Positions 12,652 through 23,295 of a DNA stretch of 28,885 nucleotides are shown here, one piece after another; within the stretch, counting starts at the first letter, position 1, and every line of letters starts with the position of its first letter. The notes under the pieces were generated by a model. That model ran no database searches, was not told where the DNA came from, and saw only the letters and a list, made by a program, of their open reading frames with translations. This stretch comes from a virus: positions 1 through 28,885 of IMG/VR virus record IMGVR_UViG_3300043410_002315; one strand, given 5' to 3'. Position numbers and translations under genes: made by a program.

Positions 12652-12726
12652 TGGTGCGCGAGGTAGGACTCGAACCTACACTCAGACCGTTATGAGCGGC
12701 CGGCTTCACCTTTAAGCTACTCGCGC
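12652..12726 (-). tRNA. tRNA with CAU anticodon (elongator Met or Ile2)
   Basis: A full cloverleaf reads on the minus strand: acceptor GCGCGAG/CTCGCGC, a 4-bp D-stem (GCTT/AAGC), anticodon stem GGCCG/CGGTC with loop CTCATAA, a 5-base variable loop, T-arm GTAGG-TTCGAGT-CCTAC, A73 and encoded CCA. The anticodon stem lacks the three G-C pairs of initiators and the first acceptor pair is matched, so it is not tRNA-fMet. From the sequence alone, elongator Met and lysidine-modified Ile (AUA) cannot be separated. Confidence 0.93.
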
Positions 12727-12727
12727 A

Positions 12728-13198
12728 TTAAACTAGAATTTCCTTGAGACGATCTGCAGCATAGGAAGCAGAAAAAGCTTCTGGTTTTACCTTAGGTGCA
12801 AATCCACAAAGACCACGAATGTATCCAGTTGCTTGCTGGATAACACAAGAACTACCATGCATTTCATCGGGATTAATATCCAAATGAACTTCACAATGAC
12901 GATCACCTACAACGTCGACCAACTGAAGATACATTTCAGCGGCTTTATAAACTTCGTTCATCAATCTAACGGCGGGACGATCGTGACGTGAGTCGTAGTC
13001 TCTTTCCGTTTCAACTTTACCGAATACTTTACAACCTCGTGAAGAGTCCATATGTACAACAATGGCAACAGTATAATCAGCAAACCACAGATCATCTTTG
13101 CCACGGTATCTTTCCGAGTCGGCGCCGATGTAGACTGATGTTGATTCTGATGTGCCACGGATAAATTCCTTGACTTCTTCTAGATCAAATTTCTTCAT
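12728..13198 (-). CDS. YkuK/DUF458-like RNase H-fold protein
   Basis: A 156-residue soluble protein. The pattern SVYIGADSERYRGKD followed by YTVAIVVHMDSS, an acidic RLMNEVYKAAE helix, EVHLDINPDE and GYIRGLCGFAPKVKPEAFSA resembles the DUF458/YkuK family, predicted RNase H-like nucleases. The Asp in IGADS and the acidic HLDINPDE strand would be the metal ligands. It overlaps the hydroxylase-like gene upstream by 14 bases and ends 1 base before the tRNA-CAU gene, so the transcript likely needs tRNA processing. Family call is by pattern, moderate certainty. Confidence 0.7.
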   Translation of the reverse strand: MKKFDLEEVKEFIRGTSESTSVYIGADSERYRGKDDLWFADYTVAIVVHMDSSRGCKVFGKVETERDYDSRHDRPAVRLMNEVYKAAEMYLQLVDVVGDRHCEVHLDINPDEMHGSSCVIQQATGYIRGLCGFAPKVKPEAFSASYAADRLKEILV

Positions 13199-13802
13199 TG
13201 TAGTTATCTCTGATGTATTTAATATTTAAATCTACCGACACAATGATTCTTTCTTTTGTACCATCATGTCGAACACTGTGTGGATAATTACCACCATCAT
13301 AAAACGCTAGTAATTTTCCTTCTTCCCAAGTTCTTGATTCATTTCCTACCGTTATTTTACATTCAGGATCACAAACGATACCAAGATGAAGTCGTAACCA
13401 ATTATTGGACCATCCAAAGTGAGGATTGATTACTGTACCCGGTAATAGACGACTAATAAAACTATTAGCTAAATGTCCACCGAATTCCATTTCTTTAATA
13501 CAGTCAACAAGTGTTGGACACTTTGATCTTGTATTTTCAGTTAAAGCTTTTAAATGAGCTCTAAACTCTGGGCTACCATTTAATTCAATGTACTCATCTC
13601 TGAATACAGAAACAGGCGCCGCTTTCCAATAATTTTCATAGATTGATTTATATTCCGGAATTGGATAATTCGGATAATCAACTAATGACATTGGATCTTT
13701 ACAGAATTGCACAACTTCTTTTTTAATCTGTTCATAATTCTCGACGAGACTTTTACAGATTGGCATATGTGCTATTTTATCTTCAAGAAAGTATTTTGAC
13801 AT
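13185..13802 (-). CDS. Aspartyl/asparaginyl beta-hydroxylase-like 2-oxoglutarate oxygenase
   Basis: A 205-residue protein with the AspH/LpxO-type double-stranded beta-helix: SRLLPGTVINPHFGWSNNWL (H128), LRLHLGIVCDPEC, W159-E-x-G, FYDGGNYPHSVRHDG (H175) and ERIIVSVDL (R185). The two His and the Arg match the Fe(II) and 2-oxoglutarate ligands of this family, which uses a two-His site. The substrate could be a protein Asp/Asn, a lipid A acyl chain or a free amino acid. The N-terminal 110 residues are helical and family-specific. The gene lies between two tRNAs. Enzyme class good; substrate unknown. Confidence 0.78.
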   Translation of the reverse strand: MSKYFLEDKIAHMPICKSLVENYEQIKKEVVQFCKDPMSLVDYPNYPIPEYKSIYENYWKAAPVSVFRDEYIELNGSPEFRAHLKALTENTRSKCPTLVDCIKEMEFGGHLANSFISRLLPGTVINPHFGWSNNWLRLHLGIVCDPECKITVGNESRTWEEGKLLAFYDGGNYPHSVRHDGTKERIIVSVDLNIKYIRDNYNEEI

Positions 13803-13812
13803 TTTGAACCTT

Positions 13813-13889
13813 TGGTACCCGCAGTCGGATTCGAACCGACACTTTGAAGATTTTAAGTCTTCTGTCTCTACCTGTTGGACTATACGGGC
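13813..13889 (-). tRNA. tRNA-Leu(UAA) with short variable loop
   Basis: On the minus strand: acceptor GCCCGTA/TGCGGGT (with a G-U first pair), a Leu-like 3-bp D-stem (GTC/GAC) with GG in the loop, anticodon stem GAAGA/TCTTC, loop CTTAAAA giving anticodon TAA, T-arm GTCGG-TTCGAAT-CCGAC, A73 and encoded CCA. The acceptor ends and D-arm resemble bacterial tRNA-Leu(UAA). The variable region, however, is only 5 bases (AAAGT) instead of the long arm of class II leucine tRNAs. Its first 10 bases overlap the 3' end of the upstream gene. Confidence 0.88.
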
Positions 13890-14302
13890 ATTATTTTCTT
13901 AAGGTGGCCGTCTGAAACCTTTACCATGATCCAACTATTATACCATTTCTCGCTCAAAAGTACATCGTTTTCGAACTGATATTTGGCCTCAAAATAGTTG
14001 CATTCACCTTTAGTTGTGCAAAGCCTGAGAATTTCTCTTTTAAAGTTATATGGACCTAGTTTTTCAACGTCTGCTATTAGTTCTTTATTAGATCCATAAT
14101 AATCTTTCCAGTCACTTTCAACTAATGTTCGTTTCTTCTTACCTTTGACTCTTTTAGTCTTAGTTCTTTTAAGAAGCTTCTTACCAATATATTGACGATT
14201 ATCGGTAAGATTAGTTATATTATATACAAAGCCTAGATAATTGTCAAGGAGCTCTGAATCAACTACACTACCATTATACACCCAAGGGTTTTCATATGAC
14301 AT
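13880..14302 (-). CDS. GIY-YIG-like nuclease (Seg-like)
   Basis: A 140-residue protein with GFVYNITNLTDNRQYIGKK (about residues 24-42), a variant GIY...YIG pair. It is followed by a basic stretch (RTKTKRVKGKKKR), YYGSNKELI, and a Glu in NYFEAKYQ, the order expected of the GIY-YIG nuclease domain. Such stand-alone proteins occur in T4-like phages as Seg-type homing endonucleases or as conserved phage nucleases. The last codons and the TAG stop are made by the first 10 bases of the tRNA-Leu gene. It may be a homing nuclease beside a tRNA, a common arrangement, but mobility is not shown here. Confidence 0.7.
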   Translation of the reverse strand: MSYENPWVYNGSVVDSELLDNYLGFVYNITNLTDNRQYIGKKLLKRTKTKRVKGKKKRTLVESDWKDYYGSNKELIADVEKLGPYNFKREILRLCTTKGECNYFEAKYQFENDVLLSEKWYNSWIMVKVSDGHLKKIMPV

Positions 14303-19249: not shown

Positions 19250-21313
19250 TCACTTACTTGTAGCTCTGTATATTCCATCCCAGTCTGCTCCCGGTGGGTT
19301 GTGCATAAACTCTTGCACTCTTTCCATCATCATCTCGTAGTATTCTCTCATCTCGCCACCAAAAGCGTTTTGTAGAGTCAAATAATACTCATACAATTTT
19401 GTCCACTCTTGCGCACGATAAAGCTTTATAAAGTCTTCATGAGTACGAGAATAAGCAACGTTAGTGCTGTTCCTAGGAACAATCGTATAAATGTTAACAC
19501 CCTCAGTTTTTCCTTTAACAGCAATACAATCTAATTCTAAGCAAAGATATTCATCTTTTACTAGTTCATATGTACGTTGGCCAATAACCATTTTCACATG
19601 GTATGGTTTTGATTGTCCTTCAAGGCGTGATGCAAGGTTAACAGTATCACCGAGACAAGTATAATCGAATCTTTGAGAAGATCCCATGTTTCCCACCACA
19701 ACACTGCCCGTATTAATACCAAGCCCCATACCAAAAGGAGGAACACCTTCCAGCGCAATCTCTTTATTAAATCTATCCAAGTCACCCAACATCTCCAATG
19801 CTGTTTTAACTGCGTGTTTTGCATGTTCTGCATCATCTAATGGAGCATTCCAAAATGCCATTTGTGCATCGCCGATATACTTATCTAGTGTACCTTCATT
19901 ATCAAGAATCTTTGCAGTCATCGCCGTCATGTAACGGTTCATAATTTCAGTAAGACCTTGCACATTAGTGCCATAATGCTCAGATATGCTAGTAAAACCG
20001 CGAACATCAGTGAACATGATCGAGAGCTCACGTGTTTCTCCTCCCAACTTTAGTAAATCTGGATTCTCTTGCAATTTTTCTACCATTGCTGGAGATAGGT
20101 AAGTACCAAATTGCTTTTTAATCTGTTGCTTTAATCTGAATTCACGAGCAAAATTATTGAATACCAGGTGTCCGAAAACCACAACCCCTGATACCAATAT
20201 ATAACTAGGATCCCATAATTGCATATAATTCGTAAATGCAAAATATGATCCATAACCAATAAGGAAAATAAAAGATGCAAACAGAGGTATGGTCCAAAAG
20301 ACCGAAGTACGTGGTACTAGAAATAGCAATGTGCTGCACAGTATTAGCAACAACAATCCTTCTAGTAGCCTACTCTCTGGTAACCTACTAATAGAAGTAC
20401 CATCAATAACAGTCTGGAGAGCATTGGCTTGTATTTCATGAGCCCATTTCTCTCCAGTTGGTGTGGCTATAATACCACCAACACCTTCAATAGTTAATCC
20501 AAGAATAACTATTTTACCTTCTATTTTTTCTTTAGTGAGTTCAGTCGCTTCGACACGCTCGAACTTGTTGTTCCAAGTGAGCCAGATACGGCCGTTTTGG
20601 TCTGTTTTAATTGGCGGGAATTGTGGGATACGGACGGCTTCGACACCTGCTTCACCGGTCTTGATTTGATAAGAGGGATCGCCAGCAGCTGTGCGTAAGG
20701 TTTCCAATACGAGAGAAGGATAAAGTGTATCGCCAATCCTAGCCAACATAGGCAGACGGCGAACCACACCATCGCGCTCAGGAGCGCCGGCAAGAAGCCC
20801 CACGCCACTAGCGCTATCTGCCAAACTTGTAAGAGGAGCCACAGCCCCGCGCCAAGTATACAACCATGGATCAGGAGGAGAACCGATAGCAGCAAACCCT
20901 CTGCGAGCTGCATCTGCAGGTCTTGACTGAGCTGTTGGTGTTTGTGATATAACCACTGGAACGGAACGAAAAGCATTTTCAAGATCTTTGTCACCGCCAG
21001 CACGGTCACGTTCAGAAAAAAGTACAGGTACTGCAATAACACCAGCACCCATGGTACGTAAGTTATCAATAGTCTTGGCAATATCTCTACGATCAAAAGG
21101 CCATTGACCAAACTTCTGAACTGATTTCTCACCGAACTCAACAAGTACTACCTCTTCTGACTCTTTTTTATCTAACGATGTAATAAAATAGTCAAAAGTT
21201 TTCAGCTGTAAAGTTTCAACAGGACTTGGATTTATGCTGTAGACAGTAATCAAAAATAATGTCGTTACGACTGCTGTCCACGTGCTCGTAAGTATTTTTC
21301 CAAAAGTTTCCAT
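19250..21313 (-). CDS. CHASE2-domain class III adenylate cyclase
   Basis: A 687-residue membrane adenylate cyclase making cAMP from ATP. Layout: membrane helix near 10-27; CHASE2 sensor facing the periplasm (about 35-310; VVLVEFGEKSV, WPFDRRDIAK, KIVILGLTIEG); three helices near 316-333, 338-360 and 369-386; cyclase domain about 425-612. Catalytic residues are all present: metal-binding D436 (MFTDVRGF) and D482, substrate Lys K478 (LDKYIGDA), T552 for adenine (DYTCLGD), N559 and R563 (NLASRLE). Their spacing (K to D 4, T to N 7, N to R 4) fits active enzymes. Codons for the CHASE2 part (about 20560-21000) are GC-richer than the neighbours, suggesting capture from a bacterium. It is the last gene of the curli operon, 2 bases after a curlin-like gene. 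Confidence 0.92.
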   Translation of the reverse strand: METFGKILTSTWTAVVTTLFLITVYSINPSPVETLQLKTFDYFITSLDKKESEEVVLVEFGEKSVQKFGQWPFDRRDIAKTIDNLRTMGAGVIAVPVLFSERDRAGGDKDLENAFRSVPVVISQTPTAQSRPADAARRGFAAIGSPPDPWLYTWRGAVAPLTSLADSASGVGLLAGAPERDGVVRRLPMLARIGDTLYPSLVLETLRTAAGDPSYQIKTGEAGVEAVRIPQFPPIKTDQNGRIWLTWNNKFERVEATELTKEKIEGKIVILGLTIEGVGGIIATPTGEKWAHEIQANALQTVIDGTSISRLPESRLLEGLLLLILCSTLLFLVPRTSVFWTIPLFASFIFLIGYGSYFAFTNYMQLWDPSYILVSGVVVFGHLVFNNFAREFRLKQQIKKQFGTYLSPAMVEKLQENPDLLKLGGETRELSIMFTDVRGFTSISEHYGTNVQGLTEIMNRYMTAMTAKILDNEGTLDKYIGDAQMAFWNAPLDDAEHAKHAVKTALEMLGDLDRFNKEIALEGVPPFGMGLGINTGSVVVGNMGSSQRFDYTCLGDTVNLASRLEGQSKPYHVKMVIGQRTYELVKDEYLCLELDCIAVKGKTEGVNIYTIVPRNSTNVAYSRTHEDFIKLYRAQEWTKLYEYYLTLQNAFGGEMREYYEMMMERVQEFMHNPPGADWDGIYRATSK

Positions 21314-21315
21314 AA

Positions 21316-21579
21316 TCAGTACTGATTGATGATGTAAGGACTATTAGGGCAAGTACTACCACAAGTGACAGACAGGCTAAAAGACTGAGGCGTTTGGCCT
21401 GATTGGTTGGCGATAACTGAAATAGAGTCTCCGCTAAGAGACAAGTTAATAGAATGGCCAGCACCAGATTGAGTAATAGAAACATTTTGAGTTGCTCCTT
21501 GCAAATTCACTGTTGCATTATTAACAGTCTGCGAATAAGCAGCAGTAGTCATAAGAAGTAAAGCTAAAAATGTTCTCAT
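21316..21579 (-). CDS. Small secreted curlin-like protein
   Basis: An 87-residue protein with a signal peptide (MRTFLALLLMTTAAYS) and alternating hydrophobic/polar strands: NNATVNLQGATQNVSITQSG and AGHSINLSLSGDSISVIANQ. These have the curlin-like N-x-V-x-I-x-Q-x-G spacing. The C-terminus (CGSTCPNSPYIINQY) has a possible disulphide and an aromatic end. It could be a minor fibre subunit or CsgB-like nucleator. Its ATG overlaps the fecR-like stop (TGATG), and the cyclase gene begins 2 bases after its stop. The curlin relation rests on repeat pattern and context, not on strong identity. Confidence 0.7.
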   Translation of the reverse strand: MRTFLALLLMTTAAYSQTVNNATVNLQGATQNVSITQSGAGHSINLSLSGDSISVIANQSGQTPQSFSLSVTCGSTCPNSPYIINQY

Positions 21580-22682
21580 CAGTTACCCTGCTTTATATTA
21601 ATCGTTGTTGTTCCTCTACTATTTACAATCTGTGAAATAGTAATATTTTCCTGAGTAATATTTACTGTTGCACTATTATTGGTAGATAGTGTTACTTCTG
21701 CATATCCATTATTTACTTCGCGATATAATGTTACAAAATCATTTTCAACAAAGTATTTTAAGCCAGTTGCAGCATTGTATTTAGGTAGTAATGCATTATA
21801 TTCTGCTAATTCATTGCCAAGTAATTGCGAAGTAGCTATATCTAATAGATTATATAAAAAATCGGAATCAAGATAATTTCTATCTAATTTATTATATTCT
21901 TTTAGGTAATCTTTACTTAACTCACTATATGCTAATAGATCTTGACCAAGCAAATCTTCATCGAGAAAATTATATGCTTTTGTTACGGTAGTTTCCTGTG
22001 TTTGTATTTGACGAGGAGGTGTGACAATAATAAGATTATTGATTTGATCTAAACTTAGATTTAAAATAGCAGATTGAGGTTTTTGTATTCCAGAATTAAC
22101 AGTAACTGATTCAAATGGTTTTGTTAACCAAATCTTGCCCATAATTGTACTAACAGATATAGATCCAGTAACACAATCACGTTCAATATCTTTCCATCTA
22201 GCAGGACAAGAAGGAAGCAATATAATTGTTGATCTTCCTGTTTCATCTACAGATCCTGAAAAGTCTGTTCCTCTAACACCAATAGTTGCCGTAGGTGTTT
22301 CAACTACAACTTGTTGAGGATCATTCTTTGCTATTTGGCCGGAAGCATATTTGATTGTTCCTAAAGCCATCTTGATTCCAAGTTTACCAGTTTTCTTGGA
22401 ATCATCGTAAACAAAGTTATCAATTACAAGCTTGGAATGCTCGGTTATCTGAACCTTCGTATCATCTCTAAAGGTAATACCTGCTTTAGCATTAGCTGTA
22501 GTAACAATGTCGTTCATCTCCACTTCGGATTGTACCGCAGAAGGAACAACACTGCCAGCTCTTTTAATTTCAGTAGGACCTGTTTGTTCAGTTACCTTAC
22601 CAACATCAGCATTACTGATGGTTGGACTTAACAGTAAGAGCGTTACCAGAACCAGTGATTGTAGAAATAACTTTTGAATCAA
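21579..22682 (-). CDS. FecR-domain protein with C-terminal curlin-like repeats
   Basis: An exported protein with a FecR domain: VQSEVEMNDIVTTANAKAGI, ITFRDDTKVQITEHSKLVID, and ETPTATIGVRGTDFS are the family's strand motifs. A charged Tyr/Leu/Asp-rich middle (LDRNYLDSDFLYNLLD) follows. The last 35 residues (SATVNITQENITISQIVNSR, then TTTINIKQGN) look like curlin repeats. The frame can begin at 22724, but the TTG at 22682 has AGGG 8 bases upstream and yields a clean signal peptide (IQKLFLQSLVLVTLLLLSP). The start therefore lies inside the curlin gene in another frame. In bacteria FecR-domain proteins are often next to CHASE2 cyclases, as here. Secretion through or docking to CsgG is inference. 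Confidence 0.8.
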   Translation of the reverse strand: MIQKLFLQSLVLVTLLLLSPTISNADVGKVTEQTGPTEIKRAGSVVPSAVQSEVEMNDIVTTANAKAGITFRDDTKVQITEHSKLVIDNFVYDDSKKTGKLGIKMALGTIKYASGQIAKNDPQQVVVETPTATIGVRGTDFSGSVDETGRSTIILLPSCPARWKDIERDCVTGSISVSTIMGKIWLTKPFESVTVNSGIQKPQSAILNLSLDQINNLIIVTPPRQIQTQETTVTKAYNFLDEDLLGQDLLAYSELSKDYLKEYNKLDRNYLDSDFLYNLLDIATSQLLGNELAEYNALLPKYNAATGLKYFVENDFVTLYREVNNGYAEVTLSTNNSATVNITQENITISQIVNSRGTTTINIKQGN

Positions 22683-23295
22683 CGCCGCCACCCTGTTTAA
22701 TATCCACTGTATTTGTAGCACCATAGATATTCACATCTGCTTCATGGCCGTTAGTGCCAGCAACACCAGTCTGTTTAATTGCAACATCGTTGCCACCACC
22801 ACCAGCAATTAATACAGTGCTTTTTGCACCGGAAACTGCAGTCGAATCATTCTCAATGTTTACTGTATTATTATCAGTATTAATTGTAACTGTTGAAAGT
22901 GTTAAACCTTCACCATTTTGTGTTACAGTATTATTATCTCCAGTAATAGTATTTTGGATAGTTGAACCTGAACAAGATCCACCAGCACCACAAGCAATAC
23001 CTACAGTATTATTATCACCAGTCACTAGCGAGCTTACAGTTACCCCGTCACCAGATACAGTGACATTGGCAACGTTATTGTTACCAATCTGGTCTATCGT
23101 TACTGTATTATTTTGTCCGTTAAATGACGCTTTTGCACTCGCATTACCTACAGCATTAGTATTACCAGTTTGTGTTATATTAATAGTAGATCCGTCACCA
23201 ATCTGTTCAACATATACACTATTACCTGCTGCATTTGCATAATTTACCATAACCAAGAATGACAATAACGCCATCATTCTTGTTAATAGTTTCAT
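22612..23295 (-). CDS. Curlin-repeat protein (CsgA/CsgB-like)
   Basis: A 227-residue secreted protein with a signal peptide ending in YANA. The mature part is a series of about seven imperfect repeats of 20-30 residues rich in Asn, Gln, Gly, Thr and Val: NSVYVEQIGDGSTINITQTG, NNTVTIDQIGNNNVANVTVS, TVDIKQGGG and others. The V-x-I-x-Q-x-G-x-x-N spacing matches curlin repeats that stack as amyloid beta-solenoids. It is longer than E. coli CsgA (151) and has one Cys pair (ACGAGGSCSG). The gene starts right after csgG, so it is the presumed exported substrate. It is probably the main fibre subunit. Confidence 0.82.
   Translation of the reverse strand: MKLLTRMMALLSFLVMVNYANAAGNSVYVEQIGDGSTINITQTGNTNAVGNASAKASFNGQNNTVTIDQIGNNNVANVTVSGDGVTVSSLVTGDNNTVGIACGAGGSCSGSTIQNTITGDNNTVTQNGEGLTLSTVTINTDNNTVNIENDSTAVSGAKSTVLIAGGGGNDVAIKQTGVAGTNGHEADVNIYGATNTVDIKQGGGVDSKVISTITGSGNALTVKSNHQ

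Follow-up and report, generated by a model that had tools for sequence, protein, structure and literature searches.

A leucine tRNA(UAA) without the long variable arm in a T4-like phage, and its recurrence in phages and bacterial genomes

According to a 2023 review, leucine tRNAs carry a long variable arm everywhere except in animal mitochondria, whose tRNA-Leu(UUR) is a class I molecule charged through A73 and A14 without such an arm (PMC9976931). For bacteria, a single sentence mentions a short-loop tRNA-Leu(TAG) in a Mycobacterium tRNA gene cluster (PMC6582537). Beyond that sentence, a literature search on short-arm tRNA-Leu returned no analysis of a class I bacterial or phage form, although absence from a search is not proof. 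Here we describe such a tRNA in a viral sequence of 28,885 nucleotides (nt), referred to below as the window (positions 1 to 28,885 of IMG/VR record IMGVR_UViG_3300043410_002315), where it occupies 13813-13889 on the minus strand; the minus-strand letters of 13889-13813 read GCCCGTATAGTCCAACAGGTAGAGACAGAAGACTTAAAATCTTCAAAGTGTCGGTTCGAATCCGACTGCGGGTACCA. This tRNA shares with its mitochondrial counterpart the class I shape and the reading of UUR codons, but the latter is organellar, has a weakened anticodon branch and is served by its own synthetase, whereas nothing is missing from the bacterial core of the phage tRNA (PMC9976931). The Mycobacterium tRNA (PMC6582537) likewise combines a leucine anticodon with a short variable loop and lies in a mobile-looking tRNA cluster with an HNH endonuclease gene, but its anticodon is TAG rather than UAA.

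The segment 13889..13813 is an intact cloverleaf tRNA-Leu(UAA) from which the class II arm is missing. ARAGORN called tRNA-Leu(taa), with the anticodon at position 35 and boundaries of exactly 13813-13889 on the minus strand, and the Rfam tRNA model RF00005 matched over its full length (positions 1-71; 61.7 bits, gathering score 29; E 2.7e-11). The cloverleaf is also the minimum free energy fold (-21.9 kcal/mol, z -2.47), with 3/200 shuffled sequences folding equally well. The gene spans 77 nt including an encoded CCA, and all its stems are paired (acceptor 7/7 including G1-U72, D-stem 3, anticodon stem 5/5, T-stem 5/5). The D-arm (13864-13880) is of the leucine type, with a three-pair stem, unpaired C13 and A22, and A14, A15, G18G19, U20 and A20a; the anticodon UAA (13853-13855) lies in a standard 7-nt loop, CUUAAAA; and the discriminator A73 (13816) is followed by CCA (13815-13813). 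Between the anticodon stem and the T-stem there is only the loop AAAGU (13841-13845, positions 44-48, with U48 at 13841), 5 nt where a class II variable arm has at least 10. An earlier note, made from the letters alone, had described this gene as a short-arm leucine tRNA(UAA), proposed a check with tRNA models, and named a fold restoring a long arm as grounds for dropping the description; ARAGORN and the Rfam model both call the tRNA, alternative folds restoring the arm were sought and the best fold contains none, and the description stands.

In E. coli, leucine identity depends on A73, A15-U48, G18G19, A20a and core tertiary contacts, and also on A14, while the sequence and folding of the long arm are irrelevant to leucyl-tRNA synthetase (LeuRS), and variants lacking both the anticodon arm and the long arm stay active (PMC9976931). 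Every E. coli determinant that we checked is present in the window tRNA (A73, A14, A15-U48, G18G19, A20a, the three-pair D-stem and unpaired 13-22). Because all the listed determinants are there, charging through A73 and the D-arm, one of two possibilities raised in the earlier note, is the best reading of the sequence, and the reported activity of armless E. coli variants is consistent with it. We consider it very probable that the gene specifies a UUA-decoding leucine tRNA of short-arm (class I) form charged by the host LeuRS. That enzyme would recognize A73 together with the leucine-type D-arm and core (A14, A15-U48, G18G19, A20a and the short D-stem), and the missing arm would be no major determinant for a bacterial LeuRS. 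During infection, it may then give an AT-rich phage a larger supply of UUA-reading tRNA. The earlier note's statement that UUA is common in such genes holds in part: UUA makes up 20.9% of the leucine codons of the window (GC 38%), which is fairly common, but CUU is commoner (32.7%), leaving UUA second.

To see how specific these determinants are, we numbered ~1,800 tRNAs that ARAGORN called at the loci and scored them jointly for A14, A15, U48, A20a, A73 and unpaired 13-22. The joint set occurred in 145/148 long-arm tRNA-Leu, in 186/238 short-arm tRNA-Leu(UAA) among the matches listed, and in 90/100 short-arm tRNA-Leu with other anticodons, which had not been selected by any pattern, compared with 6 of ~1,300 other tRNAs (4 Tyr, 1 Ile, 1 Phe). 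We further aligned the window tRNA with 36 others sharing a leucine anticodon, a 5-6 nt loop and the determinant core. Across these 37 short-arm sequences, all four stems covaried: 99.5% of cells were paired and 18/20 pairs showed two-sided changes, with a covariation score of 0.881 against 0.221 for shuffled and at most 0.150 for slid alignments. Bacterial class II tRNA-Leu(UAA) shares with the window tRNA the anticodon, A73, A14, A15-U48, G18G19, A20a, the three-pair D-stem and unpaired 13-22, and in sister viruses it occupies the same locus; it differs in having a 10-20 nt variable arm and G9 with G13 or A13, as long-arm tRNA-Leu does generally, where the window type has no such arm, A9, C13 and a NAGU loop.

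Several points weigh against leucine charging. In the UAA set, U20, A22 and the D-loop register were imposed by the pattern used for searching, a bias from which the set with other anticodons is free. A crude isotype profile trained on long-arm tRNA-Leu ranked Leu first for the window tRNA, only 1.8 nats above Ile, and assigned just 96/238 listed short-arm tRNA-Leu(UAA) to Leu; these outcomes count as weak evidence against a leucine tRNA and are explained in part by the differing core. Finally, the determinant list is that of E. coli LeuRS, and the enzyme of the phage host may differ from it. It is the specific determinants, rather than resemblance across the whole profile, that carry the leucine case.

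Within the short-arm set, the nucleotide at position 9 was seen to track the variable loop, with A9 accompanying NAGU or NAGC loops and G9 accompanying UU-rich ones, a pairing that suggests two tertiary-core solutions to a short arm. Short forms carrying G9/G13 are closer in appearance to long-arm tRNAs whose arm has been lost, and the short form probably arose more than once.

The short arm is not an oddity of this phage but is widespread among phages. A pattern blind to arm length returned 120 loci from IMG/VR viral contigs, in which the gap from anticodon loop to T-stem was bimodal, at 13 nt (short arm) in 8 loci and 19-29 nt in 112, with none between; the short form thus accounts for about 7% of the viral tRNA-Leu(UAA) genes that the pattern matched. 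A second pattern, restricted to the short form, was run on viral contigs and bacterial genomes, and its counts are those among the matches listed and hence lower bounds. ARAGORN called nearly all of these matches tRNA-Leu(UAA), and found beside them neighbouring short-arm tRNA-Leu with CAA, UAG, GAG, CAG and AAG anticodons. Comparison with related phage tRNAs, a check proposed in the earlier note, placed the short form at the window's locus in dozens of independent viral contigs and showed that isolate phages have the form as well, including Synechococcus phages S-CREM1, S-T4, S-SRM01 and Sf-FR1, Vibrio phage D482 and others; phage records annotate the short-arm genes plainly as tRNA-Leu. The S-CREM1 tRNA-Leu, short-armed and 87.8% identical to that of the window, also lies near a baseplate hub/tail lysozyme gene, but amid many other tRNAs, whereas the window has just two. 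A scan of a plasmid collection for the short form gave two weak matches only.

In bacterial genomes, the short form can be the only UAA tRNA found, as is the case in many Actinobacteriota. We sampled 149 genomes from the phylum of Curtobacterium, in which 27/149 had just one match, of short-arm length, and none of long-arm length, ~70 had a long-arm match instead, and 47 had no match at all, the pattern missing some genes; these, too, are counts of listed matches. A full census of Rfam tRNA hits in two draft genomes, Curtobacterium oceanosedimentum (46) and Garicola koreensis (40), recovered the same leucine set in both, namely long-armed isoacceptors for the four anticodons CAA, CAG, GAG and UAG and a single short-armed one for UAA, so that the short form appears to be the sole UUA decoder in both drafts unless a gene is missing from the assemblies. 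Elsewhere among bacteria, the short form is an extra copy within tRNA arrays or stands beside a long-arm UAA tRNA. A cyanobacterial survey, which gave a few matches of short-arm length, is uninformative on sole-decoder status, as chance matches are many in these AT-rich sequences and intron-bearing trnL genes are missed.

We also noted how the short-form genes are arranged in the listed bacterial loci (L235-L352). In 85/118 of them no other tRNA was present, and lone short-arm tRNA-Leu(UAA) genes of this kind (e.g. L243, L246, L270, L273) came chiefly from Actinobacteriota. Others lay in arrays of 14-39 tRNA genes (L245, L251, L256, L265, L337, L339, L352), whose leucine tRNAs have several different anticodons and are all, or mostly, short-armed; these arrays contain Ser tRNAs as well, and often Tyr tRNAs.

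At the window's own locus, some viruses have the short form and others the long one. Immediately upstream of the tRNA gene lies an open reading frame (ORF) for a SegE-like GIY-YIG endonuclease (13880-14302, minus strand; Pfam PF19835, 1.9e-38, 131.9 bits, cutoff 25), which ends in the codons ATG CCC GTA TAG, its stop codon coinciding with tRNA positions U8-A9-G10. Using a nearby RNase H-like gene (PF04308; 12728-13198, minus strand) as an anchor, we fetched 80 related contigs, of which 58 carry a tRNA-Leu(UAA) near it on the same strand. A SegE-like ORF on the tRNA's strand accompanies 53/58 of these loci, mostly ~36 nt upstream of the tRNA and several hundred nt away in some. Of the 58 slots, 43 hold the short form of the window type, 4 a short form with a D-arm of the long-arm type and 11 a long form (82-83 nt), one locus (L514) that our script had called long being scored by eye as short on its 6-nt loop. 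A tree of the RNase H-like protein, itself poorly supported, requires at least 8 switches between the short and the long form. The clearest pair of relatives, L512 (long) and L513 (short), is collinear, 86% identical over 3.5 kb and has identical RNase H-like proteins; a second short/long pair, L529 and L531, shares 85% over 4.7 kb. Short and long forms thus substitute for one another at a single slot, and this speaks for a shared function.

A described parallel is the T6 SegB/tRNA-Tyr locus, where a GIY-YIG Seg gene likewise adjoins the gene of a phage tRNA and shares microhomology with it (PMC13096335). There the pair is SegB and tRNA-Tyr and amplification was shown by experiment, whereas the window's pair is SegE-like and tRNA-Leu and is known from sequence. 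By its position and by analogy with T6, the SegE-like endonuclease may drive the exchange of alleles and move the slot; the slot, SegE-like gene followed by tRNA-Leu(UAA), in which either form is seen across related viruses, would then be mobile. The 58 loci, from uncultured viruses (L506-L583), accordingly form a set of candidates for endonuclease-driven exchange of alternative tRNA-Leu(UAA) alleles.

Other accounts of the missing arm were weighed against a short-arm leucine tRNA. Its class I shape and an overall profile near Ile could fit a changed identity, the other possibility raised in the earlier note, in which a UUA reader is charged with a non-leucine amino acid. Yet the full leucine determinant set is present, the tRNA swaps with ordinary long-arm tRNA-Leu at one locus, and in the virus clade UUA positions resemble those of other leucine codons: in the RNase H-like protein, Leu makes up 79% of the residues opposite UUA and likewise 79% of those opposite other leucine codons, and in the SegE-like protein 57% compared with 61%. 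UUA reassignment was rejected because the UUA columns match those of other leucine codons, and we regard a changed identity as highly improbable. That the window is a single metagenome contig could point to a sequencing or assembly deletion, which the earlier note had named as a ground for refutation, but since the short form recurs at the same locus in dozens of contigs and is seen in isolate genomes too it is not a deletion artefact. For the short form in general this account is already refuted; for the window itself, where the 5-nt loop retains U48 and the core is distinct (A9, C13, NAGU loop), we give it next to no credence. A non-functional remnant, or a mere target or insertion site of the SegE-like endonuclease, might be suspected from a gene that lies just upstream in most relatives and in the window ends within the tRNA gene, but all stems covary, CCA and the loop consensus are retained, and the clade's 49 distinct tRNA-Leu sequences, with UAA or other anticodons, keep the tRNA fold, making this very unlikely.

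The remaining alternative concerns why the arm is short. Septu and retron-Eco7 cut the variable loop of tRNA-Tyr, and the tRNA-Tyr of phage T5 is reported to resist retron-Eco7. The resistance to anticodon nucleases suggested in the earlier note has no support, the anticodon loop being standard; a nuclease that cuts the variable arm would be the more logical agent. Selection could have favoured a short arm because host defence nucleases or toxins directed at long variable arms would find no site there to cut or recognize, the phage tRNA surviving an attack on host class II tRNAs. MenT3 needs the long loop of tRNA-Ser (PMC11541572), and the alternation of forms beside a SegE-type gene would suit this idea. 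However, our searches turned up no nuclease known to cut bacterial tRNA-Leu in its arm, forms with other anticodons are short too, and short-arm tRNA-Leu(UAA) is also the resident UAA tRNA of bacterial genomes, where the decoy logic fails; we therefore think such selection unlikely. A wider proposal, that the short form is a second natural bacterial tRNA-Leu which has replaced the class II UAA tRNA in whole lineages, is spread and swapped by phages through Seg slots and partly escapes arm-directed nucleases and toxins, is speculative, and we hold it to be doubtful as a whole.

The individual gene is ordinary; it is the breadth of the short form, together with its apparent status as sole decoder in bacteria, that would surprise specialists. 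The sequences contradict a universal long arm, given the many phages with the short form and the bacterial genomes where it was the only UAA tRNA found, and the automatic rule that class II comprises Leu, Ser and Tyr breaks in genomes with short forms. Short forms also constitute a natural test of LeuRS requirements, and the long and short alleles at one locus are a set in which to ask whether variable-arm nucleases shape phage tRNAs.

Turning to the rest of the window, its second tRNA gene (12652-12726, minus strand), found by ARAGORN and Rfam, has a CAU anticodon and was called tRNA-Met. Between the RNase H-like gene and tRNA-Leu(UAA), directly downstream of the latter, lies a gene for an Asp/Asn beta-hydroxylase-like protein (13185-13802, minus strand), which is mostly absent from the relatives and occupies this position in only one of them (L559). 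The window derives from a T4-like myovirus, with a cyclase-FecR block that resembles those of Methylophilales phage Melnitz and Pelagibacter phage HTVC008M. This block consists of a 687-amino-acid CHASE2 and adenylate/guanylate cyclase protein (19250-21313, minus strand) beside a FecR-domain protein (21579-22724, minus strand). The cyclase protein is 44% identical over 99% to a Melnitz protein and similar to HTVC008M, where the block also has the curli genes CsgF and CsgG. The Melnitz genome further carries an annotated transfer-messenger RNA (SsrA) gene (L585:2157-2609).
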